Positions 3,129 to 42,002 of a stretch of 42,002 nt of DNA are shown here, one piece after another. The notes beneath the pieces were generated by a model, which worked only from the letters and a program-made list of their open reading frames with translations, ran no database searches and had not been told where the DNA came from. Where the stretch lies: contig JADHSL010000015.1 in NCBI GenBank assembly GCA_016776925.1, positions 1 to 42,002 on the forward strand, given 5' to 3'. Position numbers and translations under genes: made by a program. Origin of the DNA: Pirellulales bacterium. GTDB lineage: Bacteria; Planctomycetota; Planctomycetia; Pirellulales; UBA1268. Position 1 is the stretch's first letter. Every line of letters starts with the position of its first letter.

Positions 3129-3359
3129 CTACCGACAGGTATCACAGTTTGTCGGAGCATCTCCACCGTTTTGGTCTTTGTAGGCTTTGAGAGCCGCTGC
3201 TTCTTTGGACAACTTGAATTCTGGGCCAGCCGGGAAGTACTGGATGTCATCCTGCAAGTAATAAGCACTCGGTAGAGTTTGACCACTTACATCAACCTGA
3301 CATCCAACAAGGGACGCCCCACCGAGAATGACCAGAAAGAGTATAAAAAAGCGTTGCAT
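3129..3359 (-). CDS. Small lipoprotein
   Basis: This 76-residue protein has a short signal sequence ending in a textbook lipobox, L-V-G-C (Cys 20), so it should be lipidated and membrane-anchored. The mature part is about 57 residues, acidic to neutral, with a YYLQDDIQYFPAGPEF stretch and a C-terminal C-D-T-C pair just before the end. I chose the ATG at 3359 because it puts the signal peptide at the N-terminus; the longer open frame to 3503 has no support. Small lipoproteins of this kind are frequent in planctomycetes. The function is unknown. It is divergent from the CHAT gene. Confidence 0.75.
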   Translation of the reverse strand: MQRFFILFLVILGGASLVGCQVDVSGQTLPSAYYLQDDIQYFPAGPEFKLSKEAAALKAYKDQNGGDAPTNCDTCR

Positions 3360-3682: not shown

Positions 3683-6600
3683 GTGATCCGTTTTTTTCAT
3701 GTCGTGTTCATAGCTCTGGTAGGACTCGGTATGTACGGATCTTCAGCACGCACCTGCTTGAGTCAGGGGCCTCCTCTCCTTGGACCAGGAGGCCGAACGG
3801 TTCCGGGCCAGGCATACGACCTTGCGCAAAGGGCCCTCGCATCTGGAAGTTTCACTGATGCACTTGAATTTGCGGAAAAAGAGTACAAGGGGTGCCTGAA
3901 ATTTGGAGCAGACAGATGGATTGATTCGGCTGCCGCATCTGCGATTGTAGGTGAATGTCTTTTTGAAACTGGTCGTTACCGTGAGGCTGTTGGTTTTTAT
4001 AACCAATCAATTATTCATGTGTCCTCTCACGGGAACTGGTTACAGGATATTCGCTTTCCAAGCCAACCACTTCACGCTCAAAAGAGTCGTCCTCAGCAAC
4101 TATGGGGACAATCACCTCGTGCGATAATACTTTCCGACCTTCCAGATCGAATGCCGATCCGGCTAGGTACATCTGATCCGCAAAGTGTTTTACAAGGTGG
4201 CGGCGTACTGGCAGCACCCATTGACTACCCTCTACGCCCTCATGAGATCATGCGGTCACTTGCCATCAGCCTCTATCGTCGGGCTGATCTTCTTGGGCCA
4301 ATGGCTCGGGATGGCCAAGCCTTAGAAGCTATCTCTGCCTGGTTACAGCAGAGACCAGCTCCTCAAAATCACTTTTCTCAACAGTGGATTGATGTCTGCC
4401 TGGGTATTGTTTACTGGTCGCAAGCAAGAAACGAGCAGGCCTTACCCTTATTGAATCGTGGCTTACTCCTCGAAGCTCAGTTTGATCACCCACTGACACC
4501 ATGGGCACTTCTCGTTGGCGGGAGAATTGCTCTTGATGCCGGTCAGTATGACACAGCCAGAAAAACACTCGAACAGGCCACATTTGCGGCCGCTGCTCAA
4601 GGAGATGCTCGTGCATTAGAAGAAGCTTTTCGTTGGGCTACATATGCACACCTCGCGTTTGATAACAGACTGCCAAAGTCTGTCAGACCAGCCATTGCCT
4701 GGTCTGAAAAACAACTGCCGAGTCTCTCTCTGAGGCTCCTTTCGACTGCTGCGGCAGTACTTGCTGAGCAAGGCGATATCCAACAAGCTGCTCGATCGGT
4801 ACTCAAACTAAATCAACGTCTTGAGAAAAGTGAGCTCGCCTTAGGGCGATGTGGCGCGTACTCCAGATATACAGCTGCGTTAATTGCATATGCTGGGGGA
4901 AACAATGGCCGAGGGGACGCCGAATATGCAAAAGCATTGACTCTTGCCCGGGGATGCTCGGCAAGGCTATTTCAAACCCAGCTTTTGACTGATTCGCTCG
5001 TCCGCGGAGAATCAACGTACTCTGACCGAGAGGCAAATGACCTTTTTGAAGTTTTGCTTGCAGACCCTCTGCCAATCGCCATCCAGACAGATCCGCTTGA
5101 TGCCATTGCTGTAATTTCAACGGATCGAACTTCTGCTTTTGGGGCGTGGCTTGCGGTAACACAGAAGATCTTTCTTACAAATAGTCGTGGCGATGAAGCC
5201 TGGCTCGATGCTATTGAACATGAACGACGTAATAGCTGGCTTACAAACCAGCCGCTAGGCGGCCGTCGGGACAACCTCCTAAAAATACTTTCAACGACTA
5301 CTGGAAACAGCGAGGAGCTAACAACACTTCGCAAAAAGATATTGGCTCGCTATCCAGATGTGGCAACGAACCTAAGTGAAACTGATGCAGTACGTTTGTT
5401 ACTACGAAAGTCGTTATGGAAATCCAAATCCATGCCTCGTGACACTCAGCTCTCGGATAATCCAGAGTCATGGAAAGATTTTGTCACAAGAAGCCAAACG
5501 TTCGAGAATCAGATCAATTTTATTGCTGCGGGAAGAAATATTTTCCCGCTCCAATTTCCACCACTTTTAGAAACACCAGAAATCCGAAAACGACTTATCG
5601 GTAAACAACGCCTTCTCACATTTACGTGGACGAACTGGGGATTGTTTGCGAGCCTAGAGGCAGAAAAACAGGCTGCTTCTTGGAGAGTAAAGCGACCTGA
5701 AGAAGTTCGTAAAGAAATCATTGCACTTGCGAGGTCTCTTAGCCTCTATCACCCTCTTCGGCCTATTGAAACTGACAGGCTAGATAACCACCAATGGCAG
5801 AGCCATGCTGAAGCGTTGACTACTTTGCTGTTTGAAGATTCAGAGGTTTCATTACATCGTCATGAAGAATTTGATGAACTCATCATCGTGCCGGATGGAT
5901 TACTGTGGTACCTTCCCTTTGAATTGCTTCCAGTAACAAATACAGCAGAAAACCTCGGCAACAAAACACTCCTGTGTCTAAAGGATGTCTGTCAGATCCG
6001 ATACGCACCAACCCGAAGCCTTGCTGTCGGGCATCGGCATAAGGCAACTAGCCCTCACCTTACTGCAGTGCAGGCCAGCTTGACATACCGAAACAACTCA
6101 CCTGAGCAAGCTATTGAATCACTCGACCGCGTCAAGGCTGCTATCAACGATGCCGTTTTCTTGTCCTCAAAGACAAGTAACGTTCCTGTCAGCATCTCTG
6201 CTTCATTAGCAGATACACTTGTTATTTTTGATGAGCTCTCAGCAGATGGAAAAATTACTGACCGACCTCTTATTGCCGCACATGCTGGTCGGTCAGGCAT
6301 GTCTTTTAAAGACTGGCTCGCCCCTCCTTATAAGGCCGCTCGATGTGCTGTACTAACGGGCTTGCAAACACAGGTTTCCAGAGGCCTCAACAATTCGACC
6401 GACCGACCTGGCAGTGATCTTTTCATGACTGCTATGGATCTTGTGGCAACTGGGACTGAGACTGCTGTCATAAGCCGCTGGAATGTTGGGGGCCGCACAG
6501 CAATAGACCTAGGCATTGAATTTATAAAAGACCGCCAACGTGAAACATTGCGCGACACTCCACTTCCTGCCGCAGTGAGTTGGCAACGAGCGGTCGATCT

Positions 6601-6775
6601 CATCACTGCTGAAAAGCCTGATTTCGAGCGAGAACCGCGAATCAAAATAACAAACTCTGTCATTCCACAAAACGCAAAGCATCCCTTTTTCTGGGCTGGC
6701 TATACATTGATTGATTGCGGCGTTTTGCATGCGTCCGCAAATACCACTGAAGGCCAAGCGGAACCAGTCGAATGA
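3683..6775 (+). CDS. Exported TPR-CHAT domain protein, probable pseudo-protease
   Basis: This 1030-residue protein starts at GTG 3683 with a signal peptide (hydrophobic 5-20, cleavage near 28). Residues about 45-480 are helical TPR-like repeats. Residues about 725-1010 match a CHAT (caspase/HetF-associated with TPRs) domain: ELIIVPDGLLWYLPFELLP at 728-747, a Y-A-P-T-R-S segment, a T-A-V-I-S-R-W-N-V strand and the terminal F-W-A-G-Y-T-L motif. The catalytic dyad seems lost. The usual A-T-H-G region reads I-F-D-E-L (His position Glu 851), and the usual S-A-C-E-T reads T-G-L-Q-T (Cys position Leu 894). An adjacent H867 falls in a different strand by my alignment. CHAT proteins are usually peptidases in signalling or defence; this one is likely a scaffold or sensor outside the cytoplasm. 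Its stop overlaps the next start. Confidence 0.85.
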   Translation: MIRFFHVVFIALVGLGMYGSSARTCLSQGPPLLGPGGRTVPGQAYDLAQRALASGSFTDALEFAEKEYKGCLKFGADRWIDSAAASAIVGECLFETGRYREAVGFYNQSIIHVSSHGNWLQDIRFPSQPLHAQKSRPQQLWGQSPRAIILSDLPDRMPIRLGTSDPQSVLQGGGVLAAPIDYPLRPHEIMRSLAISLYRRADLLGPMARDGQALEAISAWLQQRPAPQNHFSQQWIDVCLGIVYWSQARNEQALPLLNRGLLLEAQFDHPLTPWALLVGGRIALDAGQYDTARKTLEQATFAAAAQGDARALEEAFRWATYAHLAFDNRLPKSVRPAIAWSEKQLPSLSLRLLSTAAAVLAEQGDIQQAARSVLKLNQRLEKSELALGRCGAYSRYTAALIAYAGGNNGRGDAEYAKALTLARGCSARLFQTQLLTDSLVRGESTYSDREANDLFEVLLADPLPIAIQTDPLDAIAVISTDRTSAFGAWLAVTQKIFLTNSRGDEAWLDAIEHERRNSWLTNQPLGGRRDNLLKILSTTTGNSEELTTLRKKILARYPDVATNLSETDAVRLLLRKSLWKSKSMPRDTQLSDNPESWKDFVTRSQTFENQINFIAAGRNIFPLQFPPLLETPEIRKRLIGKQRLLTFTWTNWGLFASLEAEKQAASWRVKRPEEVRKEIIALARSLSLYHPLRPIETDRLDNHQWQSHAEALTTLLFEDSEVSLHRHEEFDELIIVPDGLLWYLPFELLPVTNTAENLGNKTLLCLKDVCQIRYAPTRSLAVGHRHKATSPHLTAVQASLTYRNNSPEQAIESLDRVKAAINDAVFLSSKTSNVPVSISASLADTLVIFDELSADGKITDRPLIAAHAGRSGMSFKDWLAPPYKAARCAVLTGLQTQVSRGLNNSTDRPGSDLFMTAMDLVATGTETAVISRWNVGGRTAIDLGIEFIKDRQRETLRDTPLPAAVSWQRAVDLITAEKPDFEREPRIKITNSVIPQNAKHPFFWAGYTLIDCGVLHASANTTEGQAEPVE

Positions 6776-17763: not shown

Positions 17764-17925
17764 CCCTTCAGTTGTGAATTTTTATCGATTTTCTAAGTGA
17801 TAATCATTTTTCCGATGATTTCTGTCGATCCAATCTTTCAGGCGGTGGCCTGAGCACTGCTCCTGATTACTAGGTTGTCACTCTGGTACCAAAAAGCGGT
17901 ACCGGTGATTTTAGGATTGACAGGT

Positions 17926-20900
17926 ATGTCACAGAAGCAAGCTTGTGCTATTTTCGCGACGTCGTTCTTAGCTGGACTTCTTGTCACGGCTGTGGCTTTT
18001 CAACCATTTAGCAGCACATCAGTGGATACTCCTTATTTTGGATTTCCTGGTGAGTCCGTGGATCGTACTGCTCAGAATAATCAGGCTGTACCGGGAGTTA
18101 TTACAGACGCCCAATCTTCACCACCGCAGATTACCGAGCCACTTAGTCTTTCTAACCTGCCAAATGAATCAGCAGAGTCTTTTAGTAATTCGCTCCGAGA
18201 CCATCTTCTGACACTCGGTGAAATACACACAAACACGACCAGCTTTCCTCAAGCAGTAATGCTCTCCACTGAAGAAATACTTTCTCTGGAGAATCTTGCA
18301 AAACGGGCTGACAATGGTTCTGTCTCTGTTACTGCATTCAATGGAATCCCCGTTTCCGAACCAACAGAGCAAACAAAAGATTCACTCCAACCATTTGAAC
18401 TTGATGAGCCGGCAAGAGACTCAGGAGAGCAATTCGTACAATCGCCAGTGAATGAAAATCGGAGTGCATTAGAAGCACAACCCGTTATGGAACGGGAACC
18501 TGATAACTCTGAAGCACATGCGGCCGACATTGCCACGTCAGTCGTTGCTGAAAAGCCAGAATCATTGGTTTCGAATGATGATTCGACATATCTGAAAACG
18601 CAGCCTCTTGCTTCTGCACTACAGGCCGCAGCCGATCGTCCAGCTCCGAAACCGATGGACACACAGGGCCATGTGAGCGCTGATACGAATGTCGAATCAC
18701 CAGACTCACTGCGGTCTCTTGTTTCGCGTACACAAGTTTCAAGTACACAAGTTTCAAGTACACAAGTTTCAAGTACACAAACGGTTTCACAGGATCACCC
18801 ACAAGTTGAAGCCAAGAAAGCCGCTCCGACTCCAGAGTCTTCTCAAAGACCATCTGACGCCGTAGTAAAGGGCCTCCAAGCAGCGGCTGTCGCGCTCGAC
18901 AAAGTAGAGAAGACGGTACCTGTGCAAAGTCTTTTGACACGAACTTTGGGGCAATCAACCGCAGAACTTCCCCCTGATGAGAATTCCAGCAGCAAGGCGA
19001 TTTATCCATCCAAGACGGAGACCAAACTGCCTCTCTCATCAGCGAATACGAAGAAGATTGAGCCATTTTCAGCAGAATCAACAAAAACGCTTCCTTCGCT
19101 GCCGCAACCCAAACGTTGGAACAATAATCCTGATGTGCGTCTTACCCCTCGGTACGCTCGACCACATACAGAAACTGCTCCAGCTCCTCCGCTCCAACTC
19201 GAGCAGGCCGGAAACCCACTTGCAACACATCCAAAGAACTTCAATTCGGACCAGCACCTATCATCTGATAAAGCCTGGGTCAATCTTGACGAGGGCACAT
19301 GGTCGGAAGCCATTACAAGTACAAAAGTAGAGTCCCCGGTATCGTCGGATACACCACGGGAAAGAATTGTAAAACGGCTGTCCGCGGAACGTACAGCAAC
19401 TGCATCACCATCGCCACCGAACGCACCATTACCGGTTTCAAATCCTCTTAACAATACAAAGGGGAATTCAGCTACTGAACCTCAGCCAGAGCCACCAATA
19501 AAACGATTTATTGAGAGATTCAGGCCAGCGTCAGGGCCAACGCCGGGGGAACGCATACGTGACCGCATCAGTCAGAATATCAAGCGATTTGAAGCCACTA
19601 CACTGGCAACAGCCACATCACCAATAACCGCATGGCCACCACCAACAGAACTCTTGCTTGAGCTTGATGAACTGGCCGCGGATAGCCCTCCGCGGCCATC
19701 GTCATATAAAGACATTCGTAAATGGGTGGAACAGACGGCGTCCATTTTTTCTTACATTGCGACAACTCGTGGTCCACATGATCTTCAGGCGAAACCCGCT
19801 CTTATCGCTCTGGAAAAATGCTTCGATGATGGGATGGCTCTGGCTGACACTCTTCCCGATATTGATCATGCAGTTCAGATTCGGCGAGCAGCCTTTGCCG
19901 TTAAACGCCGAACAAAAACATGGCATGCCGCTGCAATTGTTTCTGAGGGACTCACAGAACAAACCGATGCTGAAAGAAAAACACTGGATGACATCTCTTC
20001 TCTTCTTGCATCACTCGAAGACTTCGAGGTGAATTCAAATGCCATACGTGCTACAGAAGTCCGACAGGCTCTCTCAGCGGTAGAGAAGTCAGAGTTCTTA
20101 CAATTCGACACACTTCACGAGGCAGTCATTCATCACTATGCAGCTCCAAATTTTCGGGTCGCTCTCGATGAAGCATTTCTCACAAGACTGATGCCGGAAT
20201 CGCCAAGCCAAACCGAAACAGTACGAGATGTCATTCTTGGAAAACCCGTTCGAGGTCGACGCGTGGTTGAGCAAATAACATCTGTTGACCTGACTCCCGA
20301 TGCTGATGAAATCTGCTTTGACCTCATCGTTGACGGCCACGTTTCAACCTATGCAATAACTGAAACCGGGCCAATAGCACTTACATCAAGAGGATCCGGC
20401 CAATTCACCGTAAAAAAACCGATGAAAATTTGTCGTGAGGGTCTCATCGCAGGCCGATCGGTAGCTTCGGCGTCGAACCGCGCTCGGCTCATGAATGTTT
20501 CTACAAGTTTTGATTCTGTACCACTCATGGGTTCCTTACTGCGGACACTTGCTCGCAATCAACATGCAGACAGTCTCCCAGAAGCAAATCGAGAAGTCGC
20601 TCAAAAAATTGTCTGGCAATCGTGTCGCAAGACAGACAAGGAGTCAGAGGAAAAATTTACAGCACTATCAAATCAGATTGAAGACAGCTTCTGGCAGCCA
20701 CTCGTACGACTTGGCCTCAGTCCGACTCCATTTATGGAAACAACAGAAGACAGGGCTACACTTCGGCTGCGGCTTAACGCCGACACCCAGCTGGCGGCTC
20801 ATACCCCTCGGCCTCGTGAGCCAGATGGAACACTCTTCGGCTATCAAGTTCATGAATCAACTATCAATAACGCATTTGAACAACTCGGGATTAAGGGCCA

Positions 20901-21417
20901 ACAACTTACACTGGAAGAACTCTTTATTCACGTACAACAACAGTTGGGTTTGGAACAAAAGATTCCAGAAGATCTACCGGAAGGTGTTTCCGTTGCATTT
21001 GAACAAGTTGAACCAATTCGTGTTGATTTTGAACAAGGACTTATCCAGGTAAAAATCTCTATTGATGCTCTCGAGAGTGGTCGGCGAAACTGGTATGACG
21101 TTATTGGCGGCGTTACGTACAAGCCCGTCGCTTCTGGAAACACTATTGTTCTACAGCGAGAGGGGCCAATTCGTATCAGTGGACCCGGGCACCGAGGACG
21201 GATTGAATTCGCATTACGAACAATATTTGGGAAAATTTTTCCGAAAGAAAGACCGGTGCCGATTGTGCCCAAAAAATTCACCGACCATCCTCGACTCCAA
21301 AATCTTACCACTCTGCAAGCTATGAGTTGGGACGGTTGGATTGCAATCGCTCTCGGTGACTCACCACAACTCCAGACGGCAGAAATTCCAGAAGAACAGC
21401 CGCCTGTCGTCCGCTAG
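17926..21417 (+). CDS. Large exported or membrane-anchored protein of unknown function
   Basis: About 1163 residues. An N-terminal hydrophobic segment (about 8-24) is a signal peptide or anchor. Residues 30-560 are low-complexity, rich in Ser, Thr, Pro, Glu and Gln, with a TQVSS repeat, and are probably disordered. After R-I-R-D-R-I-S near 555 the protein becomes structured: a helical part (about 580-760), a region with beta strands and a possible domain around F-D-L-I-V-D-G-H (about 805-830), and a C-terminal beta-rich part ending near W-D-G-W-I-A-I-A-L-G. I recognise no enzyme motif or named family. The frame extends to a TTG at 17875, but the ATG at 17926 places the hydrophobic segment at the N-terminus. 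It precedes fumC by 122 nt, with no evident functional link. Confidence 0.7.
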   Translation: MSQKQACAIFATSFLAGLLVTAVAFQPFSSTSVDTPYFGFPGESVDRTAQNNQAVPGVITDAQSSPPQITEPLSLSNLPNESAESFSNSLRDHLLTLGEIHTNTTSFPQAVMLSTEEILSLENLAKRADNGSVSVTAFNGIPVSEPTEQTKDSLQPFELDEPARDSGEQFVQSPVNENRSALEAQPVMEREPDNSEAHAADIATSVVAEKPESLVSNDDSTYLKTQPLASALQAAADRPAPKPMDTQGHVSADTNVESPDSLRSLVSRTQVSSTQVSSTQVSSTQTVSQDHPQVEAKKAAPTPESSQRPSDAVVKGLQAAAVALDKVEKTVPVQSLLTRTLGQSTAELPPDENSSSKAIYPSKTETKLPLSSANTKKIEPFSAESTKTLPSLPQPKRWNNNPDVRLTPRYARPHTETAPAPPLQLEQAGNPLATHPKNFNSDQHLSSDKAWVNLDEGTWSEAITSTKVESPVSSDTPRERIVKRLSAERTATASPSPPNAPLPVSNPLNNTKGNSATEPQPEPPIKRFIERFRPASGPTPGERIRDRISQNIKRFEATTLATATSPITAWPPPTELLLELDELAADSPPRPSSYKDIRKWVEQTASIFSYIATTRGPHDLQAKPALIALEKCFDDGMALADTLPDIDHAVQIRRAAFAVKRRTKTWHAAAIVSEGLTEQTDAERKTLDDISSLLASLEDFEVNSNAIRATEVRQALSAVEKSEFLQFDTLHEAVIHHYAAPNFRVALDEAFLTRLMPESPSQTETVRDVILGKPVRGRRVVEQITSVDLTPDADEICFDLIVDGHVSTYAITETGPIALTSRGSGQFTVKKPMKICREGLIAGRSVASASNRARLMNVSTSFDSVPLMGSLLRTLARNQHADSLPEANREVAQKIVWQSCRKTDKESEEKFTALSNQIEDSFWQPLVRLGLSPTPFMETTEDRATLRLRLNADTQLAAHTPRPREPDGTLFGYQVHESTINNAFEQLGIKGQQLTLEELFIHVQQQLGLEQKIPEDLPEGVSVAFEQVEPIRVDFEQGLIQVKISIDALESGRRNWYDVIGGVTYKPVASGNTIVLQREGPIRISGPGHRGRIEFALRTIFGKIFPKERPVPIVPKKFTDHPRLQNLTTLQAMSWDGWIAIALGDSPQLQTAEIPEEQPPVVR
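18730..18774. repeat. Three exact copies of a 15-bp tandem repeat
   Basis: The unit acacaagtttcaagt is repeated three times (18730-18744, 18745-18759, 18760-18774) plus a 6-base partial copy. It is in frame and encodes T-Q-V-S-S repeats within the disordered half of the large exported protein. Confidence 0.95.
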
Positions 21418-26781: not shown

Positions 26782-28524
26782 ATGGCGGACAATCCAGAAC
26801 AACCAAAACAACCAGAACAAGTAGAGAACAGCAATACTCCAGTACTCCGAAAAGAAAACCAGGAGACGGTATCTCCTCAGAGTGGATCGATCAAGAATGA
26901 CCTGTCTCAACAACCCAAGAAACGACGCTACAGCGTTCTGGGGATGGGGCTGCTTACATTCGTCCTGATTGCGTGCGTAACAATTGCATTGCTACCACAG
27001 TGGCTTGTCTCCGCGAATGGCGTTCGTCAACTCATCATCCGATCAGTTCCGAATTTACAGGGAGATGTTTTCGTTGGCGCAGCGTCAATCGGCTGGTATT
27101 CGCCGCTCACAATACAAGACATTGAATTCCGTTCCGCTCGTAGCGGACCAACACCGATACGCATTGGCAGCATCGAAGGCACGCAAGGCTTGCTTGAAAT
27201 TATCAGAAACGGTGGTCGGCTTGGACTCGTAACTGTCAAAGATACACAGCTTCATCTTTCGTATAACGAAAACCATGTCTCAAACCTTCAAGAAACCATT
27301 GGCATAAAGCCTCGAACAAGCCAATTGAGTAACCACTCAGACAACCCATCGCCACCCTCCCGACAGCCTACGGGACCAGCCGATGAGCGCGTTCGTATTT
27401 CAGTCAAAGATGCGCGTATACGAATCGAAGGCCCGTGGACAAGCTCCCCTTGGGAAAGTAAAGCGATTGAAGTTGAGGCTGTTCTAAACCAGTACGCCGA
27501 CGGCAGAAAGGAGTGGGCGTTGACTCCCGTCACTCTTCTAGATCATGCTCAACTTAACGCTTCTGTTGCTGCGGGGGCTTTAGCCTACGCTGCACCTATT
27601 CTCGCAAATACAACTCGTGCAAGTGGTGAGTTTTCCCTCATCATTGACGAAGCTCGATGGATTGTCGGAGAAGAAAAAACAGCTACGGTTGACGGGTCTC
27701 TTACGCTTCATGCGGTTGACGTTGGCCCAGGGCCAATGGTGGCAAAAATCATTGCTGCATTGCCTGGACGACTTCCGACACCTCCCACAGTACGGATAGC
27801 AGAGTCATCAAAAGTACACTTCCGGAAATCAGACCGTCGCATCCAGCATGAGGGCTTGGCATTTGGAATACCCCTCAAAACTTCTGGTGATCGACTCGAC
27901 ATCGTATCCGAAGGATCCGTCGGTATCGATGATCGCTCAATCGATCTTACGCTCTCCCTACCAATACCCGATTCACTGCCCACCGACCGACCGCTCTTTG
28001 CAGCACTCGCCGGAAAAACCATAAAAGCGTCTGTAGAAGGAACTCTTGATGATCCCAAACTTCAATTAGACGCCTCATTGAAACGGACCGCGGCAGATGT
28101 CGCTACTGATTTTATTCGAGAATTACGGGATAAGAAAAAACAGACACCACTGGATGAGGCATCCCAAAAAACTGGTGGTAGTCCGGAGCAGCTACCATCA
28201 TTACCAGATAGCGATCCAAGCATGAACAATTCCACGAGCCAGATGACTTCAGAAGAAAAGGTTGGAAACGCACAAAAACTTGATCAACTCAAAGACCTAC
28301 TTCCTGCTGATATTTCTGATGACCCAACCACCGATGCGGTTATCGATGCCGTGGGTGGGCTTCTTGACGAGGTTGCAAGGAGGCGAGCAGAACGAGAACA
28401 GAATAAGAGCAAAGATCCTTCAGCCGCCCCTCAACAGGATCGACCTGCACGACGATTTCTACAAAAACTTTTGGATACTGGTAGTGAGGATAGGCCCGCC
28501 GATACACCGGCGAATTCTCAATAG
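26782..28524 (+). CDS. AsmA-like membrane-anchored protein
   Basis: This 580-residue protein starts at ATG 26782 with AGGAATAAG upstream. Residues 1-48 are a hydrophilic cytoplasmic tail rich in Gln/Pro, 51-73 a single transmembrane segment, and the rest extracytoplasmic. Just after the membrane come L-V-S-A-N-G-V-R-Q and strands such as V-F-V-G-A-A-S-I-G-W-Y-S-P-L-T-I-Q-D-I. These are typical of the beta-groove AsmA/TamB-type superfamily, which moves lipid between membranes or aids outer-membrane assembly. The last 150 residues are charged and probably disordered. The family assignment is by fold-like pattern and is tentative. Confidence 0.7.
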   Translation: MADNPEQPKQPEQVENSNTPVLRKENQETVSPQSGSIKNDLSQQPKKRRYSVLGMGLLTFVLIACVTIALLPQWLVSANGVRQLIIRSVPNLQGDVFVGAASIGWYSPLTIQDIEFRSARSGPTPIRIGSIEGTQGLLEIIRNGGRLGLVTVKDTQLHLSYNENHVSNLQETIGIKPRTSQLSNHSDNPSPPSRQPTGPADERVRISVKDARIRIEGPWTSSPWESKAIEVEAVLNQYADGRKEWALTPVTLLDHAQLNASVAAGALAYAAPILANTTRASGEFSLIIDEARWIVGEEKTATVDGSLTLHAVDVGPGPMVAKIIAALPGRLPTPPTVRIAESSKVHFRKSDRRIQHEGLAFGIPLKTSGDRLDIVSEGSVGIDDRSIDLTLSLPIPDSLPTDRPLFAALAGKTIKASVEGTLDDPKLQLDASLKRTAADVATDFIRELRDKKKQTPLDEASQKTGGSPEQLPSLPDSDPSMNNSTSQMTSEEKVGNAQKLDQLKDLLPADISDDPTTDAVIDAVGGLLDEVARRRAEREQNKSKDPSAAPQQDRPARRFLQKLLDTGSEDRPADTPANSQ

Positions 28525-38892: not shown

Positions 38893-41800
38893 CTAGACAA
38901 GTCCCGGGTCTACAAAAATACTATCAGCGGATTCATCACTGTCTTCAGCAAAGGAAAACGTACTGTTCTCATTTGCTGCCACACTCGCAGCCCATCCTGC
39001 AGCAATATCAGCAAAGGCTTGTGCTCGAGAGGCAGCTGAATCCCGAGACTCAGCAAGTACTTTTGTGTCAACGTCTGAAAGTACACTCGAAACGTCGATC
39101 ACATCAGCTCTCCGGAAGCTTCCCTCGTGCCGCAACAGCATCTGCCTTGGTGCTGACGCAGAGCCACTATCAGGGCCTTGGCTTCCACCACTTACTCCTG
39201 CGATCATTGCAGCATCAAGCATTGAAACAGTTCCATTCCCGCTCACATCTGCCACGAGCGAAGGAATCACGACAGGATAATTAACAAGCCCACTATCCAG
39301 CCGCATCGCGAGTCTCGCTGCGAGGGCTGAATCTGCTGAACTATAAGCACCATCACCACTGGTATCACCTAGTGCTGCTACCAGTTGAACAGCATTACTT
39401 CCACCAACAGTAATGGTGCTGTTACTTACAACTGATTCTAAACTGAGAAGTGCTGATGATCCATTTTCAGCTGCCGTGTCAACCTGAGCCATTACATTCG
39501 CTATTGTCAATTGACCTGCAGGAGCCCCTCCGCCATCTGGGAAAGATTCCGTCGCATCAAACCTCAAGGCAATTCGCCCCGGCTCTAGAACTTCTGTTGA
39601 AAAAGTCACAAATTCCGGCAGGTTAACCGCAGGCACAATATCTGAAACATCTAGCAACTCCGGATTGAAACTGAAAATAGCATCGAGTGAACGAACAGAT
39701 CCATCAGACTCCAAAACAAGCGGAATCCCTGATTCACTCCCAACTGGAACATGTACGTCTTGCCCAGGCCCCCTCGCAAAACTCGGAATAGCTAACCGAA
39801 CTGTTGGCACTTCTGAAATCGTGAACGTGCCGTTGTAGCTATCACCAGCTTCCTCATCGGCATTGCCATCCAGCAACTCTCCGGTCACTGTTTGGAATGC
39901 ATCACTTCCGCTGCGAACGACTACTGAATATGAGTCAATGGCAAGTGCACCATTCGCAACGAACTGCAAGCTACGACCATCAGCAGCGATGACTAAAGAC
40001 CCGTTCACATCCCCCGTTGTCGCTCCACGAAGAGTTATGTCAGATTCACCAAAGATGCCCATAGCGTCATAGAGATTCACAACACCCACATCAATTGGCC
40101 TACTAAATGAAACCCGAAAACCATCAGTGGCACTTACTAATTCGGTGACATAAAGCGTCTCGACTTGGTTTTCAATCTGAATAGAGATAATTTCCTCGAA
40201 GGACTCTCCTTCACCGTCAGTCACTCGAATACGGATTCCTCGAGTTGCACCAGACTCAAAATCAAAGGATGTGGTTGTAATCAATTGCCTACCATCAACT
40301 GAGAACGACGCGTTGTCACTATCGCCTTCTCCGGCTACAAGCTCAAAGGTGAATGAATCTCCGTAGTCAGGATCAATGGCTTCCAGCAGTCCAATGACCG
40401 TGCCAGCCGGGCTGTTCTCGACAACAGTGGTCGAGGAGAGAGTAATCCCTGTTGGCGCTCTGTTACCAACTGCTACGACATGAATACCATCATCATCAAA
40501 AACAGGAATCATGCCCTCATTCAGACTAGCTCCTCTTACATCAAGCACATGAGTTTGGTCTTTTTCCGCATTCGTTGGCACTGTGGCCAGAAGACGAGCT
40601 ACCTCGTAGCTTCCAGCTGCAAGTGGTTGCGGCGAAAAGAATCCGACTACCGCATGGCCTGGCTCAAGCACATTAATTAATGACAAGGCACCAGCAGGCA
40701 TACCCGCCGCTAATTCAACACCAGAAATATTCAGTAATTCAGGGTTGTAAAACAACTCCATATCAAGTGACATGACTCCTTCTAATGCCGTCACAACGAT
40801 TGGAATACCACCAGCAGAGGAGGCTGGAACATTAACTTCTTGGCCTGCAGTCTCAAAAAATCCTGGGACACCCACAATCGCAGTGCCGACCGACAGCGGC
40901 TCAATCGTAAATGTTGACACATAGTTGTCGCCCACCACTCCGTCACTGTTTCCATCTAGCAGGCGACCATCAACTGCCACTACTCCATTCTCTCCACTTC
41001 GAACAGTAAGTGTGTATTCACCGGCATCCAGAACACCGTTATTTACCACCAAACGAAAACCATTCTGGTCGTCGTCGATCGCAATAGCTGATTCAATCAG
41101 GTTTCCATCTGTATCCCGCAACGTCACGTCGAGAAATTCAGGAGCAGCTGCTCGATTGTGGAGATCAAGATTCGATACATCGAGCTGGCCAGTAAATCGA
41201 ATACGAAAACCATCTCGATCTGGAACAAGTTCCTCAACAAGAAGTCCCTCTGGAACATCTGTGACAACGATCGTGAAGACTCGGTCCACCGACTCTCCCG
41301 TGGCATCAGTGGCACGCACCCTGATCGAGTGCGATTCACTCGTCTCAAAATCGAATTGTCCCGTTGTCACTAGAGTACTGCCATCAATTGCGAATAGCGT
41401 ATTGCCATCACTGCCCTCACCATTCACCAACGATAGAGTGTGAGAGTCACCAACGTCCTCATCAAGTACCGTGAACTCCCCGACAGATGTGCCAACCCCT
41501 GCCGTCTCAGGTACTACTCCGTCTGATAAGAGTATGACTGCTGGGGCATCGTTCCGATCAGTAATTGAAATAACAAACGTCTTCTCAAAAGAATCATCAC
41601 CAGAAACTGCTTTCACTCGAATTGTGTATGAGTTGTCGGCTTCGTAATCAAAAGAGCTTGTTGTCTTTAAGATGTTCCCACTTATTGAGAACCTATTGTT
41701 GTCATCAGAACCGTTTCCACGAGCCAAGGAATACCTGATGTTTTCACCACCCGCTGCTTCAAGAACGCCTACGAGTGATCCCGCAGGCAGATTCTCGTCA

Positions 41801-42002
41801 ACTTGGGAATTACCAAGGGAAATATTGGTGATTGGATCAGGGGCAACGAGGGCGTCGAGAGTCACAGCCAACGCAATAGACCCGGTAGCTCCACTCCATC
41901 CATCGACTGCAATCTGGTATGCCTGCCCGGCTGTGGCTTCAAAGGTAACGCGGCTTTGCAGCACAACTCCATAATCAATATCGTCGTTGCTAGTAATTCG
42001 TG
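38893..42002 (-). CDS. Giant cadherin / cohesin-like / dockerin exoprotein (N-terminus off the window)
   Basis: The frame is open through the right edge, with about 1035 residues visible. From the edge inward: a beta-rich segment with R-V-T-F-E-A-T-A-G-Q-A-Y (PPC-like), then two cadherin-like repeats, an Ig-like domain and a cohesin-like domain. A third cadherin, a second Ig-like and a second cohesin-like domain follow. The C-terminus has a dockerin-like pair of calcium loops: D-T-S-G-D-G-x5-D near 41 codons after the last strand, and D-V-S-G-N-G-x5-D. A hydrophilic Ser/Ala-rich tail ends the protein. Such proteins are cell-surface adhesins or scaffolds in planctomycetes. The Ig-like plus cohesin-like unit occurs twice, an internal duplication. 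The true start and export signal lie beyond the window. Confidence 0.88.
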   Translation of the reverse strand, partial: RITSNDDIDYGVVLQSRVTFEATAGQAYQIAVDGWSGATGSIALAVTLDALVAPDPITNISLGNSQVDENLPAGSLVGVLEAAGGENIRYSLARGNGSDDNNRFSISGNILKTTSSFDYEADNSYTIRVKAVSGDDSFEKTFVISITDRNDAPAVILLSDGVVPETAGVGTSVGEFTVLDEDVGDSHTLSLVNGEGSDGNTLFAIDGSTLVTTGQFDFETSESHSIRVRATDATGESVDRVFTIVVTDVPEGLLVEELVPDRDGFRIRFTGQLDVSNLDLHNRAAAPEFLDVTLRDTDGNLIESAIAIDDDQNGFRLVVNNGVLDAGEYTLTVRSGENGVVAVDGRLLDGNSDGVVGDNYVSTFTIEPLSVGTAIVGVPGFFETAGQEVNVPASSAGGIPIVVTALEGVMSLDMELFYNPELLNISGVELAAGMPAGALSLINVLEPGHAVVGFFSPQPLAAGSYEVARLLATVPTNAEKDQTHVLDVRGASLNEGMIPVFDDDGIHVVAVGNRAPTGITLSSTTVVENSPAGTVIGLLEAIDPDYGDSFTFELVAGEGDSDNASFSVDGRQLITTTSFDFESGATRGIRIRVTDGEGESFEEIISIQIENQVETLYVTELVSATDGFRVSFSRPIDVGVVNLYDAMGIFGESDITLRGATTGDVNGSLVIAADGRSLQFVANGALAIDSYSVVVRSGSDAFQTVTGELLDGNADEEAGDSYNGTFTISEVPTVRLAIPSFARGPGQDVHVPVGSESGIPLVLESDGSVRSLDAIFSFNPELLDVSDIVPAVNLPEFVTFSTEVLEPGRIALRFDATESFPDGGGAPAGQLTIANVMAQVDTAAENGSSALLSLESVVSNSTITVGGSNAVQLVAALGDTSGDGAYSSADSALAARLAMRLDSGLVNYPVVIPSLVADVSGNGTVSMLDAAMIAGVSGGSQGPDSGSASAPRQMLLRHEGSFRRADVIDVSSVLSDVDTKVLAESRDSAASRAQAFADIAAGWAASVAANENSTFSFAEDSDESADSIFVDPGLV

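Follow-up and report, generated by a model that had tools for sequence, protein, structure and literature searches.

Does a CHAT domain whose two catalytic positions appear to be replaced still belong to a peptidase? Discussion of bacterial CHAT and caspase-like proteins usually treats them as proteases that act in defence, cell death or signalling. The question is raised by a gene in a 42,002-nucleotide stretch of DNA from a Pirellulales bacterium, hereafter the window. From the letters alone, a first-pass annotation had read its product as a secreted TPR-CHAT fusion that has lost its dyad and would serve as a pseudo-enzyme sensor or scaffold.

The TPR-CHAT gene and its product

The gene occupies positions 3683..6775 of the forward strand, starts with GTG and encodes 1030 residues; its orthologues are full-length and mostly single-copy across Pirellulales. 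All three parts of the product are encoded on the same strand: a predicted N-terminal export signal (about residues 1-28, 3683..3766), a TPR/helical superhelix (about residues 45-588, 3815..5446) and the CHAT domain (residues 708-1010, 5804..6712). Pfam matched TPR_12 (E=1.3e-12) and CHAT (PF12770; E=1.2e-10, 41.8 bits against a cut-off of 24), and an AlphaFold2 model placed helical repeats in the TPR superhelix with pLDDT mostly above 90. The CHAT assignment is further backed by Foldseek and by scans of the orthologues, in which Pfam matched the domain in 54 of 54.

Read by eye, the N-terminus of the window protein is hydrophobic, and those of the orthologues look like typical Sec signals ending in ...A-x-A-Q or ...EAQ ahead of the first conserved region. 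These features suggest that the TPR-CHAT protein is probably exported through a Sec-type signal, in agreement with the secreted fusion first proposed. The product of 3683-6775 is the sole CHAT protein of its genome, so that no active paralogue stands alongside it here. PADLOC, NCBIfam and PDB sequence searches with the protein returned nothing useful. In two orthologous loci (L053 in G040 and L071 in G087) the gene lies in two open reading frames, with the break between the TPR and CHAT parts, which represents either a split or a frameshift. Elsewhere in the window, a 1023-residue protein with cadherin and cohesin domains is encoded at 38893-41964 (- strand), and two large open reading frames of 1180 and 580 residues (17875-21417 and 26782-28524, both + strand) had no Pfam match at E 1e-5.

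The catalytic dyad is absent across Pirellulales

Residues at the catalytic positions were counted in an alignment of 122 distinct orthologues. Where canonical CHAT proteins read ATHG, the window protein has F849-D850-E851-L852 (6227..6238, + strand), directly preceded by strand 845-848 of the AlphaFold2 model. Column 851 contains Glu in 59 sequences, Asp in 54, Ala in 4, Pro in 3 and Thr in 1; an acidic residue is thus present in 113/122, and His in none. The equivalence of residue 851 with the catalytic His comes from the order of strands in the model and not from coordinate superposition. In mixed MAFFT alignments the His column was left unplaced (a gap or residue 830) because canonical CHATs carry long insertions around the ATHG loop, and strand order was used instead.

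The Cys loop, SACET in canonical CHATs, corresponds to T892-V898 (6356..6376, + strand), with model strand 888-891 directly before it. Column 894 is Phe in 61 orthologues, Leu in 28, Val in 11, Tyr in 9, Met in 8 and Trp in 4, with Cys in 0/122. With sequence aligners and hhalign the canonical Cys falls at residue 898 rather than 894, through a 4-residue insertion after the strand; at 898 we counted Ala in 72, Met in 29, Val in 6, Leu in 6 and Ser in 2, and again Cys in 0/122. Since the two model strands end directly before F-D-E-L and T-G-L-Q-T, the columns chosen by the first-pass annotation are favored, and both F849-L852 and T892-G893-L894-Q895-T896 sit where it had placed them. Since Cys occurs in neither register, the conclusion that the dyad is lost does not depend on the register. 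We looked for homologues with the canonical dyad in the same columns and found none among the 122. The catalytic His of the ATHG loop and the catalytic Cys of the SACET loop, which define an active CHAT peptidase, are both absent across Pirellulales.

Two further motifs set the family apart. R932-W933-N-V-G-G937 (6476..6493, + strand) is its form of the canonical S-L-W-x-V-x-D, with G937 in 121/122 orthologues, whereas canonical CHATs of the class have Asp at W+4 in 18 of 19. Because the dyad motif was the criterion for choosing the canonical set, conservation of the dyad there is built in, whereas the Asp at W+4 played no part in the choice. The nearly invariant, family-specific motif E984-P985-R986 (6632..6640, + strand; conserved in 120/122, 111/122 and 118/122, respectively) falls where the canonical sequences are mostly gapped in the profile alignment.

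Fold, descent and maintenance of the family

Structure prediction had been suggested as a check, and two AlphaFold2 models (pLDDT 90 and 89.5) show a complete TPR-CHAT protein. In Foldseek searches the TPR-CHAT protein Csx29/Craspase came first (E 1e-11, TMq ~0.6), followed by separases, SAVED-CHAT and gingipain; the caspase/separase-like fold expected of a CHAT domain is thus recovered in the model with pLDDT 89.5, as judged from these matches. A profile-profile match to dyad-bearing CHATs, at a probability of at least 99%, identifies the family as a true CHAT homologue. In the predicted structures, then, the complete CHAT fold is kept despite the dead site.

A protein search found orthologues in 54 of 59 relatives, with one copy per genome save a few cases. 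Within an even sample of the class Planctomycetia, they were present in 28/28 Pirellulales genomes; the other orders of the sample had no orthologue, and the sole match outside Pirellulales was a 57-residue TPR stretch. About 1000 residues are conserved, with invariant positions in the TPR and CHAT parts alike: the CHAT part holds 38 columns conserved at 90% or more, the largest share of such columns in the protein, and G526-G527-R528, H269 and W141 of the TPR part are conserved at 94% or more. In the tree the family forms one long branch, separate (support 0.82) from 19 dyad-bearing CHATs, some of them from Pirellulales too. This is most simply read as a single loss of the dyad before Pirellulales diversified, with the domain maintained since.

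Estimates of dN/dS for the CHAT half were 0.14 (L001/L002), 0.025 (L058/L059), 0.05 (L064/L065) and, for the closest pair, 0.24 (L003/L004), broadly like those of the TPR half and with no pseudogene-like relaxation. Such values of 0.03-0.24, together with retention across the order, rule out a decaying pseudogene and indicate a maintained pseudo-peptidase. A pseudo-form confined to one strain was likewise ruled out, as the homologue alignment called for by the first-pass annotation showed the dyad-less form to be a conserved subfamily, with the loss common to the whole of Pirellulales. The finding is therefore stronger than first stated: a whole order has a disarmed, exported TPR-CHAT.

Two genomes deserve separate mention. 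A phylum-wide profile search returned a full-length family member (G343:C61:2710-5538, E 7.8e-257) in a genome of another class; it contains one in-frame TGA, the contamination estimate of that genome is 6%, and either transfer or contamination would account for it. Genome G055 has two TPR-CHAT copies (L119 and L047), neither of which adjoins the lipoprotein gene described below, which was found on a third contig.

About 320 bp upstream of the TPR-CHAT gene, and divergent from it, lies a small gene (3132..3359, - strand) for a lipoprotein of 76 residues with the lipobox LVGC, which is probably membrane-anchored. Its tail of about 40 residues is almost invariant (GQTLPSxYYLxDDxQYFPxGPEFKLxxEAAA), and it matched no Pfam family. 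On the other side it adjoins the gene for an MraZ protein (2290-2850, - strand; Pfam E=1.4e-12). According to coordinates read from the searches, the lipoprotein gene adjoins the TPR-CHAT gene divergently in 66 of the 71 Pirellulales genomes that have it, the exceptions being G055, G079, G114, G147 and G164, where it is on another contig. All 115 lipoprotein copies detected in fetched loci were divergent, with a median distance of 449 bases to the aligned portion of the TPR-CHAT gene; these loci overlap between fetches and do not represent 115 species. Eleven fetched loci with enough flank had no lipoprotein gene nearby. The relatives without a TPR-CHAT gene, most of them incomplete assemblies, have no lipoprotein either.

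The linkage spans about 20 families while other neighbors shuffle. Within the regions of 10-18 kb examined, no larger conserved operon was seen and no other neighbor came near the lipoprotein in linkage; TauE, ABC and TPR neighbors are common mainly to the window's own family. The lipoprotein itself was found in 115 of 119 Planctomycetia genomes, usually as a single copy and including orders without this TPR-CHAT, and outside Pirellulales its neighbors are unrelated. An obligate, exclusive pair is thereby ruled out, and the class-wide occurrence with unrelated neighbors argues that the lipoprotein does something independent of the TPR-CHAT protein rather than serving it as a dedicated partner. 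Its adjacency in Pirellulales may reflect co-regulation only.

A proposed binding role and comparison with known systems

From the dead site, the predicted fold and the selection on the domain, we infer that the protein binds rather than cuts. The reading that we consider likely is that of an exported pseudo-peptidase, made of a TPR superhelix and a complete but dead CHAT domain, that was fixed in the Pirellulales ancestor. An analogy drawn from pseudo-caspases and other TPR-CHAT proteins would make it a sensor or scaffold. Within the cell envelope, the TPR arm and the groove that once took up substrate would together hold a partner polypeptide, and the catalytic corner of the groove would now offer an acidic and hydrophobic surface beside the near-invariant R932/W933 and the EPR motif. 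As a membrane-anchored partner, the lipoprotein is the foremost candidate. It perhaps tethers the TPR-CHAT protein to the membrane, and its tail would perhaps be the bound polypeptide. More tentatively, and with more doubt than conviction, we propose an as yet undescribed envelope complex of the two proteins, present in nearly all Pirellulales, with the dead groove as a structural or sensory receptor that holds the invariant tail.

Could the domain still be a hydrolase? A re-wired site, with acidic residues 850/851 and Thr/Ser 896 (or His/Gln 895) in place of the Cys-His dyad, would make use of residues that are highly conserved in this region, namely D850 (92/122), Glu/Asp 851 (113/122) and Thr/Ser 896 (118/122), along with His 895 (54/122). 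However, residue 896 matches the T or S of canonical SACET in either register, so that its role is probably structural; there is no conserved general-base His, since residue 895 is Gln in 50/122 orthologues, including the window protein; and G937 stands where a further conserved Asp would be. We regard such an enzyme as very improbable. Still less credence goes to a genuine peptidase whose dyad was misassigned by hand alignment, as the first-pass annotation itself had cautioned in pointing to His867 and Cys888. Both residues lie near the site in the window protein, but His867 is His in only 3/122 orthologues and Cys888 is Cys in 18/122, and in the model Cys888 opens the strand whose far end should meet the Cys loop. 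Searching more widely, a His within 838-862 combined with a Cys within 886-906 occurs in only 2/122, one of which (L170) reads as out of frame there. The dyad is missing, not misassigned.

The third alternative accepts the loss: the pseudo-CHAT would do no more than cap, structurally, a TPR scaffold for the assembly of another envelope machine, and the lipoprotein would be unrelated, kept in place by a shared divergent promoter region. It draws on the TPR-part residues, which are as conserved as those of CHAT, and on the class-wide lipoprotein, which elsewhere is independent of the TPR-CHAT gene. Yet the 38 highly conserved CHAT columns exceed what would be expected of a passive cap, and linkage to the lipoprotein over about 20 families suggests more than chance proximity; we think this explanation unlikely, although less so than either form of active enzyme.

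On our preferred reading, that of an exported pseudo-peptidase, one CHAT lost its catalytic residues ahead of the diversification of a whole order and has since persisted near-universally, almost always in single copy. The TPR-pseudo-CHAT thereby offers a natural test of what use the caspase fold has without catalysis and, together with the lipoprotein, a concrete candidate pair for the envelope biology of Planctomycetes. Our literature search brought up no paper on either a pseudo-CHAT from planctomycetes or the lipoprotein.

Separase is an active eukaryotic protease; it was matched by Foldseek (E 1e-7 to 1e-4), with no sequence match found. The transmembrane anti-sigma factor DdvA (PDB 8rot/8rw5), a membrane-associated regulator that contains a CHAT domain, was ranked 14th by Foldseek for the full-length model. 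It keeps ATHG and a Cys (ACEGG) in the aligned segments, whereas the TPR-pseudo-CHAT shows no anti-sigma part: Pfam gave no cytoplasmic sigma-binding domain, and its N-terminus looks like a cleavable signal rather than a transmembrane helix. Canonical planctomycete TPR-CHATs (L075-L104) share the Pfam domain and the profile match of at least 99% probability, but they retain ATHG and SACE/DT as well as the Asp at W+4, and fall outside the family in the tree (support 0.82).

The best Foldseek match, the type III-E CRISPR peptidase Csx29/Craspase, likewise has a TPR superhelix ahead of a separase-like CHAT region. Its dyad (H615/C658) is verified, and its TPR arm can relay a signal to the CHAT site (PMC10028731). 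In contrast to this CRISPR-linked enzyme, the TPR-pseudo-CHAT has no dyad and carries an export signal; no CRISPR gene indicating a link to Cas7-11 (gRAMP) or type III-E was present among the Pfam-scanned neighbors in the window, and PADLOC gave no match. The premise of the first-pass annotation that CHAT proteins are peptidases needs some nuance here, because they already include pseudo-caspase parts, such as CHAT1 of Csx29 (PMC10028731). The pseudo-orthocaspases of cyanobacteria and Alphaproteobacteria (e.g. SyOC) are also lineage-conserved caspase-fold proteins with both dyad residues replaced (PMC6426788, PMC7889975). They have a p20 domain with Tyr/Ser at the dyad, whereas our family has a CHAT domain with Glu/Asp and Phe/Leu at these positions, fused to TPRs, with an export signal and a lipoprotein neighbor.
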